Below are positions 19,589 to 31,564 of a DNA stretch of 43,199 nt, piece by piece. Position numbers and translations under genes: made by a program. Numbering within the stretch: the stretch's first letter is position 1; every line of letters begins with the position of its first letter. Source of the stretch: Lysobacterales bacterium (lineage in GTDB: Bacteria > Pseudomonadota > Gammaproteobacteria > Xanthomonadales > Xanthomonadaceae); the NCBI GenBank assembly GCA_017302075.1, contig JAFLEB010000006.1, positions 1 to 43,199 on the forward strand. The letters are read 5' to 3'. The notes under the pieces are model-generated. The model ran no database searches. It had not been told where the DNA came from and worked only from the letters and a program-made list of their open reading frames with translations.

Positions 19589-20185
19589 TTGGACACGCGC
19601 ATGCTGGTGGCGACCGCGGCCTTCGCCTGCGTGGCCACGGTGACCCCCGGGCCGAACAACACGATGCTGGCGGCATCGGGCATGGCCCATGGCATCCGCC
19701 GCACGCTGCCGATGATGGCCGGCTTCCTGTGCGGCTTGCTGGTCCTGCTGGTGCTGGTGGCCGCCGGACTGGGCGCGGTGCTGGTGCGCCTGCCTGCATT
19801 GCACCTGGGCTTGAAGGTCGCCGGCGTGGCCTACCTGCTGTGGCTGGCCAGCCGGCTGTGGCGTGCCTCCGCAGGCAGTGATGCGGCGCCCGTGCCCGCG
19901 CCACTGGGGTTCCTCGCCGGTTGCGCGTTCCAGGCGATCAATCCCAAGGCCTGGATGATGACCGTGAGCGCGGTAGGGGCGTACGCATCGCCCGGCGCCG
20001 GCTATTGGCCTTCGGTCGCGCTGCTGGTCGCGGTGTTCGCACTGTGCGGCCTCTCGTCGGGGCTGTTGTGGAGCGCCTTCGGCAGCGCGTTGCGCCGGCA
20101 ACTCACGGATCCGCGCCGCGCGCGCCTGCTGGGCCGGGCGATGGCGGTGCTGACCGCCGCCTCCTGCCTGCTGGTGCTGGACTGA
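19589..20185 (+). CDS. LysE-family amino-acid exporter
   Basis: This 198-residue inner-membrane protein has about six hydrophobic segments and the family motif VTPGPNNTML near the N-terminus, followed by GIRRTLPMMAGF. FQAINPKAWMM in the middle is also typical. LysE/RhtB proteins export amino acids or related small molecules. The start was chosen as TTG 19589 because GAGAGGGGG lies 7 bases before it; the first ATG (19601) is too far from that site and would give 194 residues. The stop is 8 bases before the next gene, so the two form an operon. Substrate unknown. Confidence 0.9.
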   Translation: MDTRMLVATAAFACVATVTPGPNNTMLAASGMAHGIRRTLPMMAGFLCGLLVLLVLVAAGLGAVLVRLPALHLGLKVAGVAYLLWLASRLWRASAGSDAAPVPAPLGFLAGCAFQAINPKAWMMTVSAVGAYASPGAGYWPSVALLVAVFALCGLSSGLLWSAFGSALRRQLTDPRRARLLGRAMAVLTAASCLLVLD

Positions 20186-20193
20186 GGCCGCCC

Positions 20194-20829
20194 ATGGCCG
20201 CGGTGACCTGGTACTTCGATGTCGTTTCGCCCTTCGCCTACCTGCAATGGCAACGGTTGAAGCCGATGCACGGCATCGCCTGGACCTTCCGCCCGGTGTT
20301 GTTCGCCGCCTTGCTGCAGCACTACGGCCACTGCGGCCCGGCGGAATTCGCGGAGAAACGCCGCTTCACGTATCGCCACCTGCAGTGGCGCGCGGCACGC
20401 GCCGGCATCCCGCTGCGTTTCCCGCCCGCGCATCCCTTCAATCCGTTGCCGGCACTGCGCCTGTGCTGCGTCGCCGGCAACACCGCGCAAGCCATCGACC
20501 ACGCCTTCGACTTCGTCTGGCGCGAAGGCCGCGGCCTGGTCGATCCCGGCGACGTGTCCTGCCTCGCGCATCGGCTCGGCATCGACGATCCCGCTGCCGC
20601 GCTGGCCGATCCCGCCGCCAAGGCGGCGCTGCTGGCGAATGCCACCCGTGCCATTGCCGATGGCGTGTTCGGTGTCCCCAGCCTGGTCGCGGGCGGCCAC
20701 GTGTTCTGGGGCGAGGACGCCACCGACATGTTCCTGGATTACCTGGCCGATCCCGGCCTGTTCGACACCCAGGCCATCCGCCGCCTTGATGCGTTGCCAG
20801 TGGGTGCGGTGCGGAAGCGTGGCCCCTAG
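20194..20829 (+). CDS. 2-hydroxychromene-2-carboxylate isomerase-like protein (DsbA fold)
   Basis: This 211-residue protein is of the kappa-class glutathione transferase / HCCA isomerase family. The opening TWYFDVVSPFAYLQWQRL carries the active-site Ser12 where thioredoxin-like relatives have Cys. The helical insert and the closing GVFGVPSLVAGGHVFWGEDATDMFLDYL, including the cis-Pro turn GVPS, fit the fold. Known members isomerise naphthalene breakdown intermediates with glutathione; many chromosomal copies have no known substrate. It starts 8 bases after the exporter. It is the last gene before the repeat-rich accessory region. Confidence 0.9.
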   Translation: MAAVTWYFDVVSPFAYLQWQRLKPMHGIAWTFRPVLFAALLQHYGHCGPAEFAEKRRFTYRHLQWRAARAGIPLRFPPAHPFNPLPALRLCCVAGNTAQAIDHAFDFVWREGRGLVDPGDVSCLAHRLGIDDPAAALADPAAKAALLANATRAIADGVFGVPSLVAGGHVFWGEDATDMFLDYLADPGLFDTQAIRRLDALPVGAVRKRGP

Positions 20830-20954
20830 CGCCGCCTGACGATCGGCGACTTGGTGGGGCATGGGGGTATCGTCGACGCCACTGTTCACCGCTTCCTCAA
20901 ACGGGAGAGCGAGCATCACGCTTGCGGGAGAGGTCGCGCCGCAGGCGTGGGTGA

Positions 20955-21079
20955 GGGCCGGGAAAAGGGTATCGGAGTGGATTTTTCGCAAGGGGAAATG
21001 GCACGCCGCTCTTCCCCCTCCCTTGCGCAGCAGGGGAGGGTTGGGGAGGGATTGCCCCGCCATGGCGCATGCCCCGGAT
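20955..21079. repeat. Palindromic repeat, copy A
   Basis: About 125 bases are repeated almost exactly as copy B, which begins 131 bases later. Both contain TCGGAGTGGATTTTTCGC, then CTTCCCCCTCCC and GGGGAGGGTTGGGGAG facing each other around TTGCGCAGCA, then CCCCGCCATGGCGCATGCCCC. A more decayed relative lies just upstream (about 20909-20950, CGGGAGAGC...GCTTGCGGGAGAGG). It has no credible protein. The 20830-21210 stretch is otherwise empty. Confidence 0.85.
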
Positions 21080-21085
21080 CGTAAG

Positions 21086-21208
21086 GGGCCGTGGAAATGG
21101 TGTCGGAGTGGATTTTTCGCCGGTGCGCCACGGCCGCTCTTCCCCCTCCCTTGCGCAGCAGGGGAGGGTTGGGGAGGGGTTGCCCCGCCATGGCGCATGC
21201 CCCGATCC
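21086..21208. repeat. Palindromic repeat, copy B
   Basis: This is the second near-tandem copy of the element at 20955-21079. The main difference is the segment after ATTTTTCGC (CGGTGCGCCACGG instead of AAGGGGAAATGGCACG). The palindromic core CCCTCCC-TTGCGCAGCA-GGGGAGGG is unchanged, consistent with pairing being what is kept or with a recent duplication. Confidence 0.85.
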
Positions 21209-21210
21209 CA

Positions 21211-21576
21211 AGCGTCATCCACGCCCCAACAAGCGGCATGCACCTCGCTTCCAGTGCCGTGCACGGGCCAAAAAGCCGCATGCGCCTCGCTTCAAATGCC
21301 GTGCACGCCCCAAAAAGTGGCGTGCACCTCACCGCAAGCGCCATCCACGCCCGCCGCCTGCCGCATGCACCTCGCTCGAAGTGCCGTGCATGCCCGAAAA
21401 AGTGCCGTGCACGGGCCAAAAAGTGGCATGCACCTCACTCGAAGTGCCGTGCACGCCCGGAAACGTGCCGTGCACGCCGCAACCAGCGGCATGCACGCAG
21501 CCCCCGCGTGCGTCGCAGCCGCTGCGATGGGCGTGCGTTCCACTTGCAACCCCATCCACGCCACCGAGGGCTGCAT
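21211..21576 (+). repeat. Phased 21-base tandem repeat array, about 18 units
   Basis: Cores of the form CATGCAC, CGTGCAC or CATCCAC recur every 21 bases. Their T falls at 21218, 21239, 21260, 21281, 21302, 21323 and 21344, then after one extra base at 21366, 21387, 21408, 21429, 21450, 21471 and 21492, with weaker units in phase at 21555 and 21576. Units alternate between GGCATGCACCTCGCTT and GCCGTGCACGGGCCAAAA forms. Twenty-one bases is two helix turns and also seven codons. Read on the plus strand it gives a heptad such as SAVHARK or SGMHLAS, but the one-base insertion at about 21345-21365 changes frame midway. The last unit forms the start of the zinc-ribbon gene. Confidence 0.85.
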
Positions 21577-21775
21577 GTCGCTGGTGCCCTGCCTGTCCTG
21601 CGAACGCCCGGTCTCCACGCTGGCCACCGCCTGTCCCGCCTGCGGCGCACCGGTTCTGGACGACGCGCCCGGATGCCTGTCCGTGGTCCTGGGCATCGCC
21701 TATGCCGGCCTCCTGCTGCTGGGGCTCGGCGTGGGCCTGCTGTTCCTGGTCGCGCTGGTCGCCGTGGTGCTGTGA
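21575..21775 (+). CDS. Small zinc-ribbon membrane protein
   Basis: From ATG 21575 this is a 66-residue protein with two CxxC pairs (Cys6/Cys9 in VPCLSCERPVS and Cys20/Cys23 in ATACPACGAPV), a zinc-ribbon pattern. One strong transmembrane segment follows (about 36-64), rich in Leu, Val and Gly, to the C-terminus. Small proteins of this build are common and unassigned. The frame is open upstream through the second half of the 21-base array, so a longer product starting at ATG 21365 (136 residues with heptads such as SAVHARK) is possible. No good ribosome-binding site precedes either start. It lies 88 bases before the restriction-modification gene. Confidence 0.6.
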   Translation: MSLVPCLSCERPVSTLATACPACGAPVLDDAPGCLSVVLGIAYAGLLLLGLGVGLLFLVALVAVVL

Positions 21776-21863
21776 GCGCGCCGATGCGGGAATTTGTCAC
21801 ACGGTGGCGCAACGCGGATGCGCCATCCGGCCCCGTGCGTTAGCCTCCGAGGGGGGAGGGGAC

Positions 21864-24800
21864 ATGACGGACACGGACGTGGCGGCCGCGCAGGCCTTCA
21901 TCGACAAATGGAAAGGGGTGGCGGCCAGCGAGCTGTCCACCTCGCAGAGCTTCCTGATCGACCTGTGCGAGCTGCTGGGCGTGGACCGCCCGCATCCCAC
22001 GCCCGAACAGGACTACATGTTCGAGCGCCCGCTGACCTTCCAGCATGCCGACGGCAGCACCAGCCCCGGCCGCGTGGACCTGTACCGGCGCGGCGCCTTC
22101 GTGCTGGAAAGCAAGAAGATCAAGGCCGGCGCGCATACCCGCGGCTTCGACGAAACCATGCTGCGCGCGCATTCGCAGGCCCAGGCCTACGCCCGCGCCC
22201 TGCCGGCCGCGGAGGGCCGCCCGCCGTTCCTGCTGGTGGTGGACGTGGGCCACCGGATCGAGGTGTTTTCCGAGTTCAGCCGCAGCGGCGGCAACTACGT
22301 CCCGTTCCCCGATCCGCGCAGCCACCGCATCGCCCTGGACGACCTGCGCGACCCCGCGGTCCGCCAGCGCCTGCGCAGCATCTGGCTGGACCCGCTGGCG
22401 CTGGACCCCAGCCGCGAATCCGCCCGCGTCACCCGCCAGATCGCCGCCCGCCTGGCCGAACTGGCCAAGTCGCTGGAACAGGCCGGCCACGCCCCGGAAG
22501 CGGTGGCGCAGTTCCTGATGCGTTGCCTGTTCACAATGTTTGCGGAAGACGTGCGCCTGCTGCCGGCCGACAGCTTCCGCACCCTGCTGGCCACCCACCG
22601 CGAGCGCCCCGACGTGGCCATGCGCATGCTGGCCCAGTTGTGGCAGGACATGGACGGCGGCGGCTTTTCCGCGGTGCTGGCGGAAGACGTGCTGCGCTTC
22701 AACGGCAAGCTGTTCAAGCAACCCGACACCCTGCCGCTGGACACCGCGCAGGTGGACCTGCTGATCGAGGCCGCCCGCGCCGACTGGAAGCACGTGGAGC
22801 CGGCCATCTTCGGCACCCTGCTGGAGCGCGCGCTCAGCCCGCAGGACCGGCACAAGCTGGGCGCGCACTACACGCCGCGCGCCTACGTGGAGCGGCTGGT
22901 CCTGCCCACCGTGATCGAGCCGCTGCGCGCCGAATGGAGCGATGCCCAGGCCGCGGCGTTCACCCTGGTGGCGGAAGGCAAGCAGGACGAGGCCGTGGCC
23001 GAACTGCTGCGTTTCCACCATCGCCTGTGCACCGTCCGCGTGCTGGACCCGGCCTGCGGCTCCGGCAACTTCCTCTACGTCACCCTGGAGCACCTCAAGC
23101 GCCTGGAAGGCGAAGTGCTGGGCGCGCTGGACGACCTGGGCCACCGCCAGACCGGCCTGGCCCTGGGCGGCGAGCGTGCGGACGCCGCTGCCGGCGAAAC
23201 CGTCGACCCGCACAACCTGCTGGGCATCGAGCTCAACCCGCGCGCCGCCGCCATCGCCGAAGTGGTGCTGTGGATCGGCTACCTGCAATGGCACTTCCGC
23301 ACCCGCGGCGACGTCAACCCGCCGGTCCCGGTGATCCGCGATTTCCGCAACATCGAGAACCGCGACGCGGTGCTGGCGTACGACCGGGTGGAATACGTCA
23401 CCGACGCGGCCGGCGTGCCGGTAACCCGCTGGGACGGGGAGACGATGAAGGTTTCGCCGGTCACCGGCGAGAAGATTCCGGACGAGACCGCGCGCAAGCC
23501 GCTGGAGCGCTACGTGAACCCGCGCAAGGCCGCGTGGCCGCAGGCGGATTTTGTGGTGGGGAATCCGCCGTTTATCGGTACCAAGCGCATGAAAGCGGCG
23601 TTGGGCGAAGGGTATGTGGAGGCGCTCCGCAAAACGTGGCCAGAAGTGCCCGAGTCCGCGGACCTGGTGATGTACTGGTGGCACCACGCTGCAACTTTGG
23701 TCGCCCGGGGTGCGTTGCAGCGATTCGGGCTGATTACCACCAATAGCCTCAAGCAGACATTCAACCGGGAAGTCCTGAATGTCGCTCTCTCGGGGAAAGC
23801 CCCTGTCACCTTGGTATTTGCGGTTCCGGATCACCCATGGGTGGACAGTACGGACGGAGCCGCCGTACGCATTGCCATGACGGTTGGGTCGGCCGCCGCT
23901 GGGAAAGGCCGACTGGCTGAGGTCGTGGAAGAAACCGAAACTGCGTCCGGCGAGACCGAGGTGACGCTGTCAGGGCGAAGCGGAATCATCCATGCGGACC
24001 TTCGGCTGGGCGCGAACGTGGCCGCAGCCGGGCCTTTGCGTGCCGGCGAAAAGATCGCCGGCATGGGGGTGGCGTTGCATGGATCCGGCTTTATCGTCGA
24101 GCCGGACGATGCGCGGCGCCTGAGCGTTCATGGCACTGCCGTCGTCAAACCGTATCTCGGTGGCCGCGATTTGTTGCAAGACAGGCGCGAACGCTACCTG
24201 ATCGACTTCAGCGGCATGACCCAAGAGGAGGCGCGGAACGCGAACTCGGCGGCTTTCCAGCACGTCATCGACTACGTGAAGCCGGAACGAGACCAGAACA
24301 ACCGGAAGGTGCTGAAGGATCTCTGGTGGCGCTTTGGTTGGGAACGCCCAGTATTGCGTGCCGCCCTGAAAGGGTTGTCGCGCTATATCGCTACAACGGA
24401 AACGTCGAAGCACCGCCCGTTCCAGTTTATCGATGGCACGTATCTTTGTGACCACTCGATTGTGTGCATCGCAATAGAAGACGCACTAGCTCTCGGCATT
24501 CTCTCCAGTACCTTGCATCACAAATGGGCTTTGGCAGCAGGATCAAGGCTCGGCGTTGGCAATGATCCTCGCTACAACAAAACACGTTGCTTCGATCCAT
24601 TTCCGTTTCCGGACGCGAATGCCGAACAAGCAAGCCGCATCCGCACCTTGGCCGAACACCTCGACGCCCACCGCAAACGCCAGCAGGCCGCCCATCCCGA
24701 TCTCACCCTGACCGGCATGTACAACGTGCTGGACAAGCTCCGCAGCGGCGAGCCGCTCACCGCCAAGGAGCGCGTGATCCACGAACAGGGCCTGGTCTCG

Positions 24801-25454
24801 GTGCTGCGGCAACTGCACGACGACCTGGACGCCGCCGTCCTCGACGCCTACGGCTGGTCCGACCTGCTGCCGCTGCTGCGCATTGCGATGGGCATGGATG
24901 CCCGAGTGCCGCGGGCGCAGGATGCGCAAGAGCGGCTGCACGGAAACGACGCCCCCGCCGAAGGCCAGACCCGCGACGATGCCAAGCGCGCCTTCGACGA
25001 GGCCATCCTCGAACGCCTGGTGGCCCTGAACGCCGAGCGTGCCGCCGAAGAAGCCCGCGGCCACATCCGCTGGCTGCGCCCCGAGTTCCAGAACCCACAA
25101 CACGCCCGCCCCGACGCGCCCGCAGACGCCGCGCCGGAGCAAGGCGATGCCTTCGCCGACGCGGACACCGGCACCGACAGCCCCTCTCCCCTTGCGGGAG
25201 AGGGTGGCGCGCAGCGCCGGGAGAGGGGAACGCCCGACAAGCCCATCCCCTGGCCCAAGGACACCGTGGCGCAGGTCCGCGCCGTCGCCGACGTGCTGGC
25301 CGCCAGCCCCGCGCCGCTGTCCGTGGACGACATTGCCGCGCGCTTCACCGCCCGCGGCCCATGGAAGAAGCGCCTGCCGCAACTGCTGGACATGCTGGTG
25401 GCGCTGGGCCGCGCCGAACCCCGCGAGGGCGGGGTGTATGGGGTGGGGCGGTAG
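21864..25454 (+). CDS. Single-chain type IIL restriction-modification enzyme (MmeI-like)
   Basis: This 1196-residue protein appears to hold both nuclease and methyltransferase. The N-terminus carries a PD-(D/E)xK-type site, Asp72 in GRVDLYRRGAF and Glu82-Ser-Lys84. A helical spacer (about 190-340) is followed by LGAHYTPRAYVERL, the SAM-binding DPACGSG (395-401) and the catalytic NPPF (567-570), an adenine-methylase type. The target-recognition region (about 600-930) includes DPRYNKTRCFDPFPFPD. The C-terminal tail ends in a winged-helix-like segment (about 1135-1190). Such enzymes methylate one strand and cut at a distance, with no separate specificity subunit. Bases about 23540-24640 are visibly less GC-rich in third positions than both flanks. 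A palindromic repeat lies inside the tail. GGGGGGAGGGG precedes ATG 21864. Confidence 0.87.
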   Translation: MTDTDVAAAQAFIDKWKGVAASELSTSQSFLIDLCELLGVDRPHPTPEQDYMFERPLTFQHADGSTSPGRVDLYRRGAFVLESKKIKAGAHTRGFDETMLRAHSQAQAYARALPAAEGRPPFLLVVDVGHRIEVFSEFSRSGGNYVPFPDPRSHRIALDDLRDPAVRQRLRSIWLDPLALDPSRESARVTRQIAARLAELAKSLEQAGHAPEAVAQFLMRCLFTMFAEDVRLLPADSFRTLLATHRERPDVAMRMLAQLWQDMDGGGFSAVLAEDVLRFNGKLFKQPDTLPLDTAQVDLLIEAARADWKHVEPAIFGTLLERALSPQDRHKLGAHYTPRAYVERLVLPTVIEPLRAEWSDAQAAAFTLVAEGKQDEAVAELLRFHHRLCTVRVLDPACGSGNFLYVTLEHLKRLEGEVLGALDDLGHRQTGLALGGERADAAAGETVDPHNLLGIELNPRAAAIAEVVLWIGYLQWHFRTRGDVNPPVPVIRDFRNIENRDAVLAYDRVEYVTDAAGVPVTRWDGETMKVSPVTGEKIPDETARKPLERYVNPRKAAWPQADFVVGNPPFIGTKRMKAALGEGYVEALRKTWPEVPESADLVMYWWHHAATLVARGALQRFGLITTNSLKQTFNREVLNVALSGKAPVTLVFAVPDHPWVDSTDGAAVRIAMTVGSAAAGKGRLAEVVEETETASGETEVTLSGRSGIIHADLRLGANVAAAGPLRAGEKIAGMGVALHGSGFIVEPDDARRLSVHGTAVVKPYLGGRDLLQDRRERYLIDFSGMTQEEARNANSAAFQHVIDYVKPERDQNNRKVLKDLWWRFGWERPVLRAALKGLSRYIATTETSKHRPFQFIDGTYLCDHSIVCIAIEDALALGILSSTLHHKWALAAGSRLGVGNDPRYNKTRCFDPFPFPDANAEQASRIRTLAEHLDAHRKRQQAAHPDLTLTGMYNVLDKLRSGEPLTAKERVIHEQGLVSVLRQLHDDLDAAVLDAYGWSDLLPLLRIAMGMDARVPRAQDAQERLHGNDAPAEGQTRDDAKRAFDEAILERLVALNAERAAEEARGHIRWLRPEFQNPQHARPDAPADAAPEQGDAFADADTGTDSPSPLAGEGGAQRRERGTPDKPIPWPKDTVAQVRAVADVLAASPAPLSVDDIAARFTARGPWKKRLPQLLDMLVALGRAEPREGGVYGVGR
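25181..25230 (+). repeat. Palindromic repeat inside the restriction-modification gene
   Basis: CCCCTCTCCCCTTGCGGGAG continues to GAGAGGG and then a second CGGGAGAGGGG: the same CTCTCCC/GGGAGAGG hairpin family seen between genes at 29803-29846 and, more weakly, at 20909-20950. Here it is read in frame as SPSPLAGEGGAQRRERG in the linker before the winged-helix tail. The codon frame stays open, which is consistent with an inserted repeat tolerated in a disordered linker. Confidence 0.75.
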
Positions 25455-25499: not shown

Positions 25500-25979
25500 A
25501 TGAAAAGCATCAAGCATGTGTGGTTGGCGTTGCTCGTCGCGTCCGTGTTGTCTGGTTGCGTGACCACAAATGCCGCTGTCTTGGGAACTCAATCCGAACA
25601 GCGTCCCCCGGTGCTCCCCGAGAACGTGAAATTGTTCCGATTCGCGAGCCAGGTTCCCGGTCAATACGAAGAAATCGCATTGTTGAATTCGGTAGGCGAT
25701 TCCGGATTCACCGATGAAGCGAAGATGTTCATGTCGATGCGCAAGAAGGCAGGGGAGCTCGGCGCCAACGGCGTGATCCTGGATGCTGTCAGCGAGCCTG
25801 GAGCGGGTGCCAAGGTGGCGGCTGCAATTTTCGGCGTGTCGGCAGAACGCAAAGGCAAAGCCATCGCGATCTACATCTTTCCGGGCACACAAGGTCAGGT
25901 CCCATCCGCCAGCACGCCGCAAACGAACGGTGCGGATCAAAACTGCGTGGCTTGCGCAAAGATCGGTAAGCCGTTGTAA
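25500..25979 (+). CDS. Small lipoprotein, function unknown
   Basis: This 159-residue protein has a clear lipoprotein signal, WLALLVASVLSGC, with the modified Cys at 20. The mature part contains YEEIALLNSVGDSGFTDEAKMFMSMRKKAGELGANGVILD, a pattern found in small periplasmic lipoproteins of the DUF4156 kind, then a polar tail with CVAC. It is probably anchored in the outer membrane. GGGGGAAATCC precedes ATG 25500. Base composition is lower in GC than the flanking genes. It lies 45 bases after the restriction-modification gene; whether it is functionally tied to it is unknown. Confidence 0.7.
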   Translation: MKSIKHVWLALLVASVLSGCVTTNAAVLGTQSEQRPPVLPENVKLFRFASQVPGQYEEIALLNSVGDSGFTDEAKMFMSMRKKAGELGANGVILDAVSEPGAGAKVAAAIFGVSAERKGKAIAIYIFPGTQGQVPSASTPQTNGADQNCVACAKIGKPL

Positions 25980-26061
25980 CCGCAGGGACGGGAGGTAAGC
26001 GACGTTCGCGCCTCCGCCCCGGTCCTTGATTTGTCAGTCGTTCCAACCCGCAACGAATCCC

Positions 26062-26709
26062 ATGCCCGACATCGTCTACGTCCTCACCAATGAAGCCATG
26101 CCCGGCATCGTCAAGATCGGGCTGACCACCGACAGCGTGGAATCGCGGCTGGCCGGGCTGAACAGCCATAGCGGCGTGCCATTGCCGTTCGAGTGCTACT
26201 TCGCCGCGGAAGTGGATTCCTGCACCCGCATCGAGCGCATCCTCCACCAGTTGTTCTCCGAGCACCGCATCAACCCGCGCCGGGAGTTCTTCCGCGTGGA
26301 CCCGGAGAAAGTGGTACTGGCCATCAGCATCGGCATGTACAAGGAAGTGACCCCGGGCAGCGTGATCGCCGAGCCGCAGGACCAGGAAGCCCTGGAGAAG
26401 GAGAAGGCGCGCCGCCCGCGCATCCGCCTGGATGCCCTGGGCATCCCGGTGGGCGCGGAGCTGACCCTCTCGCGCGACGAGACCATCACCGCGACGGTCG
26501 TTCCCGGGAACAAGGTGATCTACAACGGCCAGGTGTGCAGCCTCTCCGCGGCCGCCTTGCAGGCCTTGCACGGGCTGGGCTATCGCACGCCGTCCGCCAG
26601 CGGTTCCGAGTACTGGCAGTTCGACGGGGAGTTGCTGGACGAACGCAGGCGGCGGATGGAGTCGGAACGCTTCGATGCGCCGTCGGCCAGTGCGGAAGGC
26701 GAGGGGTAG
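26062..26709 (+). CDS. GIY-YIG-type (T5orf172-like) protein with RAMA-like C-terminus
   Basis: This 215-residue protein opens with VYVLTNEAMPGIVKIGLT, then SRLAGLNSHSGVPLPFE and RIERILHQLFSEHRINPRREFF. That is the pattern of the T5orf172/MUG113 branch of GIY-YIG nucleases: the core strand pair, the Arg, and a Glu-bearing helix. After a charged linker (about 115-135) comes LDALGIPVGAELTLSR, then YNGQVCSLSAAALQAL and SGSEYWQFDGELLDERR. This resembles the RAMA domain found on restriction and modification enzymes, thought to read modified DNA. A DNA-targeting defence or repair role is likely but unproven. ATG 26062 begins the conserved part; an in-frame ATG at 26026 has no support. It lies in a plus-strand run with other nuclease-like genes. 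Confidence 0.75.
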   Translation: MPDIVYVLTNEAMPGIVKIGLTTDSVESRLAGLNSHSGVPLPFECYFAAEVDSCTRIERILHQLFSEHRINPRREFFRVDPEKVVLAISIGMYKEVTPGSVIAEPQDQEALEKEKARRPRIRLDALGIPVGAELTLSRDETITATVVPGNKVIYNGQVCSLSAAALQALHGLGYRTPSASGSEYWQFDGELLDERRRRMESERFDAPSASAEGEG

Positions 26710-26800
26710 CTGGAGGAGCGCAGCATCGCAAGCGATGCGATGCCTGTGACGGAAACTGAGAACCGAATCCGGTAATACGGGCTTTTGGAGGGGAATGCAG

Positions 26801-27592
26801 ATGAAGCGTTGCGCCATGCTGGGAATGCTCATGCTGGCCCTGGTGTCGCCGGTCGCGGCCCAACAGCCCACCCAAGCGTCCGAGGTCGTGATGCAGTCGC
26901 TGTACAAGCGATTGGCGTCGACCCGTAGTGCGGTCTTGCTGGATGCCGCATCCGACAACGCGGCCGTGCTGGGCCACGTGTACATGTACGACCGCCCGCG
27001 CTGCATCCTGTCCGCGCCCGAAGTGCTCAAGCGGGGCCTGCCGGTCAGCATGCAGACCTACGACACGCCGATCGATGTATCGGACATCACCCTGGTATCG
27101 CGCGAGGCCAAGCAGACCGGGAGCTACACCGTCAGCAGCAGCCTGGCGGCGGAGCTCGCCGCCGACCTGAAACAGAGCGGCATGGTGGACGCATCCGTGT
27201 CGTTGAAGGCACTGACCGAAGGGCTCTCGCGCTCCAGCATGAGCTTCCGGGTGGTTCGCGAGGAAGTGGTGTACGCGAAGATGCGCAACCGCCTGGGGCG
27301 GTATCCGGTGATGCTGTCGAACATCCCGGACGAGTACGAAGGCCTGCTGATCCCCATCGCGAAGTTCTACATCACCGACTTCAAGTACAACACCAACGCG
27401 ACCCGCACCCTGGGCGGCGGCGCGAGCCTTGCGGCGGATACCTTGAACAAGCTGTTCGGCGATCTGGAATCGTCGTTCAAGGCGGAGCGCCGGAAGCTGA
27501 CCGAGGGTAGCGTGGAGATCGAAACCTCCGCGACCTTCGCCTTCAAGCCCAACGTGCTGATTGCCCGCAACAAGAAGTGCCCGCGCTGGTAG
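26801..27592 (+). CDS. Secreted protein of unknown function
   Basis: This 263-residue protein has a signal peptide (AMLGMLMLALVSPVAAQ, cleavage about residue 20) and no other hydrophobic segment, so it is probably periplasmic. I do not recognise the family. Readable features: a central region rich in Ser and Ala (TGSYTVSSSLAAELAADLKQ), a Gly-rich stretch TLGGGASLAADTLNKLFGD, and a basic C-terminus ending NVLIARNKKCPRW. GGAGG lies 9 bases before ATG 26801, favouring it over 26795. The gaps to neighbours are 91 and 46 bases. A secreted protein within a nuclease-rich run is odd; it may have its own transcript. Confidence 0.65.
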   Translation: MKRCAMLGMLMLALVSPVAAQQPTQASEVVMQSLYKRLASTRSAVLLDAASDNAAVLGHVYMYDRPRCILSAPEVLKRGLPVSMQTYDTPIDVSDITLVSREAKQTGSYTVSSSLAAELAADLKQSGMVDASVSLKALTEGLSRSSMSFRVVREEVVYAKMRNRLGRYPVMLSNIPDEYEGLLIPIAKFYITDFKYNTNATRTLGGGASLAADTLNKLFGDLESSFKAERRKLTEGSVEIETSATFAFKPNVLIARNKKCPRW

Positions 27593-27638
27593 GGGCGGAC
27601 ACGACAAGCGAGGAGGGCGGTAGCGCCGCCCTGACCCC

Positions 27639-28511
27639 ATGAAAGGACTCAAGAACGTCCGCCACCGCCGCAGCGATGCGCTGACCCAGGTCGGCTGGGA
27701 TCGCCTGGAATCGATGCTGGCGGCCTACTACGCCGGCCAGGGCTACCGGGTGGAGCACTGCGGCACCGGCGCCAGTCGCGCCCGCTTCGATGGCGGCATC
27801 GACCTGAAGCTGCGCAAGGACGAGGCCTACCTGCTGGTGCAGTGCAAGCACTGGAACGCCAAGCAGGTGCCGCACAACGAGGTGCACCAGCTGATCGGCC
27901 TGATGGTCACCGAGCGCGCGACCGGGGCGGTCCTGGTCACCAGCGGCGAGTTCACCCGCGCGGCCATCGAGGCGGCGGCCAAGCAGCCGCAGCTGCAGTT
28001 GGTGGATGGCGACGACCTGCGGACGATGCTCGGGCCGTTGCCGGAAGTGTCGCCGCCAGCGGCGCGGTTGCCCGACGTGTCGGCGCCGATCCGCCATGTC
28101 GCCACCCGCGTCGGCGAACGCCTGTTGTCCGCCGCCGAGGACCGCATCCGCCACGGCGCGGGAGGCCGCGGGCGGGCAGGGCGTCGCGGTGGCGGGGTGG
28201 TGGCGCAGGCCATCGGCACCGGGCTGGGGATCATCCTGGCGAAAGTGGTGTTCGTGCTCATTGGCTTCTTGCTGTTGCTGGCCGCGATCCAGTTCGCGAG
28301 TTCGCGCCTGCGCGATGCGGCGCATCGGCCGGCCAGCCCGCCATCCGTGGGCGTGGTGACAGTGGGCAGCCCGAGGCCGATGCCATCCGCGCAGGCCACC
28401 ACGACGGCTGCGCCGGTGGGCCGCGAGCCAACGCCCGAGGAAATCCGCGCATCGCAGCGGCGGGCCGACGAGGCGATCCGGGTGATCGAACACAGCACGC
28501 CGGAAATGTGA
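27639..28511 (+). CDS. Membrane-anchored Mrr-type restriction endonuclease
   Basis: The N-terminal about 130 residues of this 290-residue protein form an Mrr_cat nuclease domain. WDRLESMLAAYYAGQGYRVE leads to the active site, Asp55 in DGGIDLKLRK and Gln68-Cys-Lys70 in LLVQCKHW, then ERATGAVLVTSGEFTRAA and a closing LVDGDDLRTML. The Q-x-K form of the PD-(D/E)xK site is usual for Mrr proteins, which cut modified or foreign DNA. After an Arg/Gly-rich linker there is one transmembrane segment (about 195-219) and a 70-residue low-complexity tail. Positive charges before the segment suggest the nuclease faces the cytoplasm. A membrane-tethered nuclease in an operon suggests a defence role. The next gene starts 9 bases later. 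Confidence 0.85.
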   Translation: MKGLKNVRHRRSDALTQVGWDRLESMLAAYYAGQGYRVEHCGTGASRARFDGGIDLKLRKDEAYLLVQCKHWNAKQVPHNEVHQLIGLMVTERATGAVLVTSGEFTRAAIEAAAKQPQLQLVDGDDLRTMLGPLPEVSPPAARLPDVSAPIRHVATRVGERLLSAAEDRIRHGAGGRGRAGRRGGGVVAQAIGTGLGIILAKVVFVLIGFLLLLAAIQFASSRLRDAAHRPASPPSVGVVTVGSPRPMPSAQATTTAAPVGREPTPEEIRASQRRADEAIRVIEHSTPEM

Positions 28512-29885: not shown

Positions 29886-30269
29886 TCAGGCCGCCACGAT
29901 GCGGAACTCGGTGGCCTTGCTGACCGGACGGACGGCCTTGTCCTGCCGCTGCAATTCCACGAAACCGTAGCGCGACATGGTTTTCAGCGTGCGCGACAGA
30001 TTGCTGGTCTTGCGGCCCGTGGTGACCGCCAATTGGGAGATGGACTGCGGCTGCGTGTCCCGGATGACTCTCAACAGCGCGCGGTTGTCGTCGCTCAGGA
30101 CCTCGGCCAGGGACTTCATCGAGGTGAACCAGATTTTGGGTTCACCGGGCTTCGGCTTGTGCTTGCCCTGTGCGATGGCCAGGACGCGCGCACGGATTTC
30201 CTGCTGCGATGCGATACCAATCGTCACCCGGCGGGCAGCATTCCTTGGCGCATGGCGTGTGGTGGTCAT
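29886..30269 (-). CDS. Winged-helix regulator, probable antitoxin of a TumE-type pair
   Basis: This 127-residue protein has a winged-helix DNA-binding domain in its second half: DNRALLRVIRDTQPQSISQLAVTTGRKTSNLSRTLKTM then YGFVELQRQDKAVRP (the wing). The N-terminal half is basic with KPKPGEPKIWFTSMKSLAEVLSD, as in the HVO_A0114-like regulators often found beside DUF6516/TumE toxins. ATG 30269 overlaps the toxin stop by four bases (ATGA), giving coupled translation with the toxin first. It probably neutralises the toxin and represses the operon at the palindrome upstream. Pairing with a winged helix rather than an Xre-type TumA antitoxin is worth noting. Confidence 0.8.
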   Translation of the reverse strand: MTTTRHAPRNAARRVTIGIASQQEIRARVLAIAQGKHKPKPGEPKIWFTSMKSLAEVLSDDNRALLRVIRDTQPQSISQLAVTTGRKTSNLSRTLKTMSRYGFVELQRQDKAVRPVSKATEFRIVAA

Positions 30270-30628
30270 GGGGCTTTCTCCTCTGGTAGCACGCGATCCA
30301 CGGCTGCAAAGAAATCCTGGAGCAGTTGATTCGCGTCGGTGTATTCGTATGGCGTGCCCTTGTCTGTGCCATGCCGATGTTGATGGTCATGGGTCAAGAC
30401 GCGGCCGGCATACTTGAACTTCTTCGGTGGCTTGACCGCGTGAGCGTTGTCGAAGCCGAGCTGGCGAGTCCCATAGCGGTCGTGCAAGGTCAGGCAATAC
30501 GCGATGCCATGCGGAACTCCAGCCGTCGGTGCGATCCGCCGGGCCTCGATCTTGATCCAGTAGCCGTTGCCCTGGTCCAGGATGCTGCCGTCCAGTTCAA
30601 GTAGCGTGTCCACGCCAGGGTCGACCAT
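30266..30628 (-). CDS. TumE/DUF6516-family toxin
   Basis: This 120-residue protein has LLELDGSILDQGNGYWIKIEARR, then GIAYCLTLHDRYGTRQLGFDNAHAVK and YAGRVLTHDHQHRHG. The segment YGTR-LGFDNAHAV and the later His-rich DHQHRH are characteristic of the DUF6516 family, whose characterised member TumE is the toxin of a toxin-antitoxin pair that acts against translation. The start ATG 30628 lies 10 bases from a perfect palindrome that probably binds the antitoxin. The gene order (toxin, then antitoxin with overlap) matches HigBA-like layouts. The pair marks the right part of the accessory island. Confidence 0.8.
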   Translation of the reverse strand: MVDPGVDTLLELDGSILDQGNGYWIKIEARRIAPTAGVPHGIAYCLTLHDRYGTRQLGFDNAHAVKPPKKFKYAGRVLTHDHQHRHGTDKGTPYEYTDANQLLQDFFAAVDRVLPEEKAP

Positions 30629-30980: not shown

Positions 30981-31484
30981 ATGGCACTTGATCGAATCAC
31001 CCTGACCCTGCCCACCGCCAAGCTGACCGCCATAGACAACGCGCTGGTTGCCCTGGAAACCGCCCTGACCGAGCTGGTCGCCCTGGAACCGGAGGACCGC
31101 AAGCGCCTGCCGAAGATGGGCGACAAGTCCGAGGCCTTCTGCCGCCAGACCCTGACGGTGATGGCCCAGAACCCGCAGATCGTGAACCCCAGCCTGGGCC
31201 TGCCGGCCGCGCAGGCGGACCTGGCGGCACTGGACGTGTTGCGGCCCCGCCGCCAGCGCGTGCAGGCCCTGCTGGAACGCATGCAGGACACGGAAACCCT
31301 GCTGGGCAGCGACGTGATGGCCGCGGCACTGGAGGCCTACGGATTGCTGAAGGTCTCCGGCAAGAGCCAGGGCCTGAGCGCGTTGCGTGCGGGCTTGTCC
31401 GCCCGCTTCAACAAGGGCAAGTCCAGCTTGAAGCGGCTGCGCGCCGCCAATGACGCGGACGGCGGTAGCGGCAAGGTCGCCTGA
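30981..31484 (+). CDS. Hypothetical protein, mostly helical
   Basis: I do not recognise this 167-residue soluble protein. It is rich in Ala and Leu and probably nearly all helical: LTLPTAKLTAIDNALVALETALTELVAL, then RKRLPKMGDKSEAFCRQTLTVMAQNPQIV and VLRPRRQRVQALLERMQDTETLLG. The basic tail (ARFNKGKSSLKRLRAAN) could bind nucleic acid. The segment around PKMGDKSEAFCRQTL looks like the most conserved part. GAGG lies 11 bases before ATG 30981. It stands alone with its own possible promoter and a strong terminator, so it is probably well expressed. Confidence 0.75.
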   Translation: MALDRITLTLPTAKLTAIDNALVALETALTELVALEPEDRKRLPKMGDKSEAFCRQTLTVMAQNPQIVNPSLGLPAAQADLAALDVLRPRRQRVQALLERMQDTETLLGSDVMAAALEAYGLLKVSGKSQGLSALRAGLSARFNKGKSSLKRLRAANDADGGSGKVA

Positions 31485-31536
31485 CCCCGGGCTGCGCCGT
31501 CAGGGGAGCGGCGACACCAGGGGTTGCGTGACAGTG

Positions 31537-31564
31537 ATCGGGCCCTGCGGGGCCCGATTTTTTT
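31537..31564 (+). terminator. Strong intrinsic terminator
   Basis: ATCGGGCCC-TGCG-GGGCCCGAT forms a perfect 9-base stem with a tetraloop, followed by a run of T (31558-31564). It lies 53 bases after the orphan gene and ends the accessory region on the plus strand. Confidence 0.95.

Follow-up and report, generated by a model that had tools for sequence, protein, structure and literature searches.

In plasmid iterons and ParR/ParB-type centromeres, a neighbouring gene encodes the protein that binds the helically phased direct repeats cooperatively. A partly comparable arrangement is encountered in a Lysobacterales bacterium of the Xanthomonadaceae (assembly GCA_017302075.1), where positions 1 to 43,199 of contig JAFLEB010000006.1, forward strand (the whole 43,199-nucleotide stretch, referred to here as the window), contain an array of 21-bp units. 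Some relatives of this array in other genomes lie directly behind a gene for a protein of about 160 amino acids. As with iterons and centromere arrays, these phased repeats adjoin the gene for a member of a single protein family, and they are 3' of it in ten out of ten loci that have both. They differ in being chromosomal, in having a dyad-symmetric unit, in the position of the array behind the gene, and in the protein itself, for which no Rep, ParB or ParR match was found in Pfam. The array may be a non-coding, phased DNA scaffold to which a protein, probably the linked one or one of its partners, binds cooperatively, a reading that is held here at about even confidence.

Two further described systems are close. 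According to PMC2817692, repetitive extragenic palindromic (REP) elements, with their bacterial interspersed mosaic elements (BIMEs) and REP-associated tyrosine transposases (RAYTs), are palindromic extragenic repeats in regularly spaced composites, dispersed as the present arrays are, and number more than 100 copies per genome. As with REP/RAYT, one protein family is linked to some copies of the array. Unlike REP elements, the arrays have a strict two-turn phase of 21 bp and A/T spacers and are low in copy number in a congener of the window's organism (G003), their units lack the GTAG-type head that is a feature of REP elements, and the linked protein is not a recognised transposase. BrickBuilt of Porphyromonas gingivalis similarly consists of short intergenic tandem units (23 nt) in several copies per genome, and PMC4596501 describes it as a minisatellite inside a miniature inverted-repeat transposable element (MITE), with insertion sequence (IS)-like terminal inverted repeats and no transposase remnant. 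The present arrays differ from BrickBuilt in their dyad units and, in ten loci, in a constant position behind members of a single gene family. In L194, the array locus of G003, similar palindromic repeat copies (1-75 and 1333-1410, read from the sequence) flank the gene and the array in the same direction.

The window array occupies 21212-21564 and consists of 14 contiguous strong 21-bp units, interrupted by one +1 slip, and two weak in-phase units:

21212..21353, plus strand: array block a, seven 21-bp units that each combine a 16-bp imperfect inverted repeat with a 5-bp A/T-rich spacer (dyad z=3.4, p=0.002)

21354..21359, no strand: spacer with the one-base slip (unit spacing 22); a 22-bp step is also present in 9 of 12 further arrays

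21360..21501, plus strand: array block b, seven units of 21 bp (dyad z=4.3, 0 of 2000)

21528..21564, plus strand: two weak in-phase distal units (scores 3.4 and 4.1); the intervening unit at 21507 is unrecognisable

The cores are found at 21217, 21238, 21259, 21280, 21301, 21322 and 21343 (phase 7 modulo 21) and, after the slip, every 21 bases from 21365 through 21491 (phase 8); the weak in-phase cores are at 21533 and 21554. The original prediction of about 18 cores every 21 bases was right in its phasing and too high in its count, while the single-base insertion that it placed at about 21345-21365 is indeed there, between units 21338 and 21360. The self-identity of the array at lag 21 is 0.526, compared with a mean of 0.337 and a maximum of 0.403 for the best of lags 15-30 in 2000 dinucleotide shuffles. 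Tandem Repeats Finder (TRF) additionally reports periods of 42 and 63 bp, and GTGCAC and GCATGC are each present six times within 21200-21580.

The array is one of a family. Two profiles were built, R1 from the window array only and R2 from the units of the window and L194. R1 does not detect the G003 array. R2 was searched against 395 genomes of the bacterial family (cut-off E<=1e-4, with filters that drop weak matches) and has matches in 24 of them, in 11 of 54 genera, with G003 and the window's own genome (G000) counted in. Within the genus, E<1e-11 is reached only in G000 and G003, which supplied the training units, and the next genome stands at 6e-4; among 18 other genus loci inspected, clear local 21-bp repetition is seen only in L250 and L258, where it may be coding. 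In total, 34 family array loci were analysed, 22 from the R2 search and 12 taken at further hits, with flanks of about 1.5-2 kb per side. All 12 further loci hold chains of 15-22 units. In most family arrays the unit is composed of a 5-bp A/T spacer (AAAAA and TTTTT are commonest) and a 16-bp imperfect inverted repeat with the consensus G-Y-G-C-C-R-N-S|S-N-Y-G-G-C-R-C. The unit centres differ between arrays, being TCGA, TGCA or GCGC; three loci (L311, L322 and L331) have short or weak arrays, and L321 has a period of 20 bp.

A unit model trained on 220 units from other genera, with the window and L194 excluded, gives the window array 156.9 bits (16 units). The known array (12 units) is its only match in 1.2 Mb of G003, and no array of 25 bits or more appears when the same 1.2 Mb is reversed or scanned with five column-permuted models. 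This part of G003 has other lag-21 peaks, which fall within runs of N or within frames that stay free of stops for 135-540 codons and were judged coding or artefact; a stop-free frame, of 147, also runs through the array itself. In register, the unit consensus of the window array agrees with that of the G003 array better than in any of 1000 column permutations. In a comparison set selected by pattern (at least 114 unrelated 21-bp loci from genome contigs, the listing being partly of 7-bp repeats), 3 of 88 arrays match as well as or better than this consensus pair. A unit-by-unit orthology of the two arrays is not supported by their mean identity, which is 9.0/21 at shift 0 and 8.2-10 at other shifts.

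Alignments of related arrays indicate that the phase is kept while the array sequence changes. The orthologous arrays L320 and L331 have 67% identity over 289 bp and no indels, compared with 28 gaps per 2632 aligned bases outside. The array gaps between L310 and L326 are 42, 21, 2+19 and 21, and those between L325 and L330 are 16+5 and 41+1. This spacing in diverged arrays, together with the dyad-symmetric units, supports the phased binding array of the original prediction, in which binding would be the inferred part. It also makes it unlikely that the array is an ordinary minisatellite, that is, a 21-bp tandem repeat built by slippage in an intergenic gap. Such an origin is consistent with the occurrence of 21-bp arrays of unrelated units in many bacteria, with higher-order periods of 42 and 63 bp, which fit tandem duplication, and with one unrelated array that scores 121.7 bits with the unit model. 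It does not account for one unit design in several genera, for phase kept after divergence, for the dyads, or for a fixed place behind one gene family.

Dyad symmetry is significant in all 16 chosen blocks (p 0.0195 to <1/2000), including blocks a and b of the window and both together. It reaches p<=0.05 in 14 of 75 unrelated 21-bp arrays, two loci with a relative of the linked gene (L078 and L033, see below) included; thus, among unrelated arrays dyad symmetry is not general, yet it is commoner than chance. Within arrays, covariation is confined to the central pairs 7-10 (z 3.8) and 8-9 (z 8.8), the innermost of which may reflect a CG/GC dinucleotide preference, and is absent from the outer arm pairs (z -1.5 to 0.5). 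The covarying central pairs are too close to form a hairpin. This pattern favours a duplex site over an RNA stem, and the RNA-hairpin reading was set aside. An Rfam scan of the window at 20000-23000 gave 0 matches at the gathering score.

The window array is non-coding. Codon-position G+C bias is strong in the DsbA-like gene before the array and in the zinc-ribbon and MmeI genes after it; it is nearly flat about 20880-21480, i.e., across the array, and the variation between window units has no 3-base pattern. The related arrays carry steps of 20, 22 and 43; two of ten that were checked (L341 and L342) have stops in all six frames and the other eight in five or fewer, and in 16 of 20 family loci examined the array overlaps no ORF (open reading frame) supported by G+C. 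Neighbouring genes of 20 family arrays are convergent in 5 cases, tandem in 7 and divergent in 1, with no call in 7. As an alternative, the original prediction had offered a gene for a repeat-bearing protein that a one-base shift had recently broken. All three plus frames stay open across the window array, and unit variation in the G003 array is 3-periodic (0.54 versus 0.33 and 0.38), though the frames that fit contain 7 and 2 stops. Given the flat codon phase, the slips and the stops, a broken gene is hardly credible.

Two features border the array; 10 bp separate its end from the zinc-ribbon start codon (ATG, 21575), and a GAGGG is located just 5' of this ATG, as read from the sequence:

20955..21204, plus strand: 1.9 copies of a 128-bp repeat, which contains a repeat of about 37-42 bp that is dispersed in the genus (14 of its 25 genomes have matches, one of them as many as 24)

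21575..21775, plus strand: 66-amino-acid zinc-ribbon membrane ORF directly 3' of the array, with its own ATG and no match in G003

A comparison of flanks revealed one gene common to eight family array loci from five genera (four loci in g17 and one each in g30, g35, g46 and g1, the last being that of G003). The window has this gene as well:

30981..31484, plus strand: gene for a 167-amino-acid protein of the array-linked family, 72% identical over 143 amino acids to the protein beside the G003 array

31536..31564, plus strand: intrinsic terminator-like hairpin with a T run behind the gene (by eye); a matching hairpin stands between gene and array in L194

Relatives of the protein are encoded beside 21-bp arrays in a Scytonema MAG (metagenome-assembled genome; L078, E 8e-11) and a Treponema MAG (L033, E 4e-7), both chosen by array pattern alone; the names come from the titles of the MAG records, and MAGs can include misplaced contigs. 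The array is 3' of the gene in all ten loci that have both, at -8 to 130 bp from the stop codon. In the 1.2 Mb of G003 there is one such gene, encoding 158 amino acids, and one such array, and they are 122 bp apart. A terminator-like hairpin, identified by eye, intervenes between gene and array in seven of the eight family loci; therefore, the array is probably not part of the message of the linked gene.

The linked family is conserved, with 12 invariant columns across 12 aligned members. It has no NCBIfam or PADLOC match and no Pfam match over the cut-off, and PHROGs yields only weak hits of unknown function. A PDB profile search found nothing significant (best E 0.058), and searches of plasmid, phage and viral-contig sequences for the protein gave no match. 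Conservation of the 5' leader of the gene is limited to the window and G003. Among 20 proteins beside family arrays, 11 have no Pfam match at 1e-5, and 4 of these 11 are products of the linked gene. A profile search of the ORFs from the collected loci added one further locus only, L202 of G012, where a repeat with a period of about 65 bp, not 21, is located at 400-900 behind a distant homologue of the linked gene.

With a 16-bp near-palindrome and a 5-bp A/T spacer in every unit, each dyad is two helical turns from the next, and successive dyads face the same side of the double helix. The units would most likely be bound cooperatively by a dimeric protein. The best candidate is the linked protein of about 160 amino acids, whose gene is just upstream of the arrays in ten loci, or a partner of it, and other arrays in the same genomes might be bound in trans. 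In the window the module would be split, with the array at 21.2 kb, the gene at 31.0 kb and restriction genes between them. A wider proposal can be put forward only tentatively, as somewhat less probable than not: an undescribed two-part system, made up of the protein and, immediately downstream of its gene, a phased dyad array to which it would bind as a cooperative filament, with more arrays elsewhere in the genome acted on in trans, would be distributed over at least three phyla (those of the window's family, Cyanobacteria and Spirochaetes) and would accumulate accessory and defence genes.

Several observations weigh against a scaffold bound by the linked protein. Firstly, the linkage is partial. 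The gene is present in only 7 of the 34 family array loci, plus L194 (27 of the 34 are without it, within short flanks), and in only 2 of 114 pattern-selected loci among the matches listed, and in the window a distance of 9.4 kb separates the gene from the array. Furthermore, the ten gene-bearing loci are not independent, since four are from g17, and L320/L331 and L310/L326 are near-orthologous. Secondly, profile searches recognised no DNA-binding fold in the protein, and its pI ranges from 5.2 to 9.7. Thirdly, the unit is not fully distinctive. Of 114 unrelated pattern-selected loci among the matches listed, 9 score at least 25 bits with the unit model, the best being a 13-unit 21-bp array in a Chloroflexota MAG (L109, 1317-1585, 121.7 bits), the units of which have no dyad (p=0.6). 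The best dyad centre falls in the spacer in 3 of 16 blocks, and in some arrays, L194 among them, an odd spacer centre scores as high as or higher than an even centre. The gaps between L314 and L336 are not multiples of 21, at 51% identity and with an unsure alignment. Single-strand folds beat shuffles (z -3.4, -4.3 and -4.9), and a structured RNA may be an alternative to a DNA element. Finally, that protein binds the array, which protein does so and what role the scaffold has are all inferred.

Searches beyond the family provide some context. Plasmid and phage sequences gave no match to the array, and in viral contigs core triplets with variable gaps formed 34 stretches with no excess of 21. 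An intergenic 21-bp array in an Opitutae MAG (L068, 4644-5049) has 19 units with CGTGCACG cores and contains stops in all six frames; it is located between a tRNA-like stretch (by eye) and recR, and the linked gene is absent in the 8 kb examined. In Paenisporosarcina TG20, three contigs (L073, L083 and L119) carry 21-bp arrays whose core is CGTCCACT. Among the titles listed in an open-access literature search, none was on such arrays or on this gene pair.

The interval between array and gene in the window contains restriction and defence genes:

21864..25454, plus strand: MmeI-type (type IIG/IIL) restriction-modification enzyme (Pfam, PADLOC); a homologue also follows the array in G003

26026-26709: GIY-YIG T5orf172 protein (PADLOC PDC-S57)

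27639-28511: Mrr-type endonuclease

The last two belong to a restriction/defence island at 25500-28511 beside the MmeI-type enzyme. Further along, at 29886-30628 on the minus strand, the frame of a winged-helix protein of the HVO_A0114 family overlaps that of a small ORF with no Pfam match; the two are perhaps a toxin-antitoxin-like pair. The enzyme gene starts 300 bp from the array end, in agreement with the 288 bases given originally from a slightly later end point. The gene order is gene, array, MmeI and Mrr in G003 and array, MmeI, Mrr and gene in the window, on one strand in each. These orders are cyclic permutations of each other at different chromosomal places, and the chromosomal genes that flank 13-32 kb of the window adjoin each other in G003, where the segment is absent. 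Hence, the array, the linked gene and the two defence genes seem to have moved together.

This apparent mobility bears on the possibility that the array is a selfish interspersed repeat of REP/RAYT type, with a linked protein that aids movement or amplification and with no host function. Besides the permuted module at different places, seven genomes each have 2-5 separate array places, and two arrays of G175 share 601 bp at 87%. On the other hand, the linked protein has no family match to a transposase, copies are few (1.2 Mb of G003 contain a single array), and such an origin leaves unexplained the strict 21-bp phase of L320 and L331 at 33% substitution with no indel. A selfish repeat is therefore considered possible but rather doubtful.

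The position of the enzyme raises another question, namely whether the array holds the targets of the MmeI-type enzyme or a control region of its gene. MmeI itself is a type IIL enzyme (PDB 5hr4) that, according to PMC4833311, cuts about two turns (20/18) from its site; the neighbouring enzyme has the same domain order, and such a reach matches the period of 21 bp. Homologues of the neighbouring enzyme at E<=1e-100 are present in 19 of 247 family genomes, the window's own included. An array just upstream of the enzyme, on the same strand, is seen in two congeners, the one in G003 having 12 units of 21 bp (L194). The two enzymes are 62-98% identical per 50-residue step over residues 1-600 and 30-62% at 601-900, which hold the target-recognition domain (Pfam), and the array cores differ too. 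However, among 34 rows of homologues (24 family and 10 class, several pieces of one gene included) an upstream array is found only at the window and L194, and the CAC core of the window is not kept in the G003 units. The 20 neighbours of family arrays have no restriction-modification match, nor do 20 proteins beside unrelated 21-bp arrays include a restriction-modification family, and MmeI-type domains are no commoner in array-bearing genomes (5 of 14) than in controls (4 of 14). The array as an enzyme target is thus unsupported here and very improbable, and the suggested link with the methylation motif of the enzyme is not supported either, given the same neighbour and domain counts and the varying unit centres.

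If the array is a phased scaffold, a conserved protein family of unknown function acquires a phased DNA array, in a constant position behind its gene, as its physical partner, and its role becomes directly testable. The related arrays also provide a case of non-coding repeat spacing that appears to be kept over large sequence divergence. For other bacteria, the pairing may point to an explanation for some intergenic 21-bp arrays that lack one.
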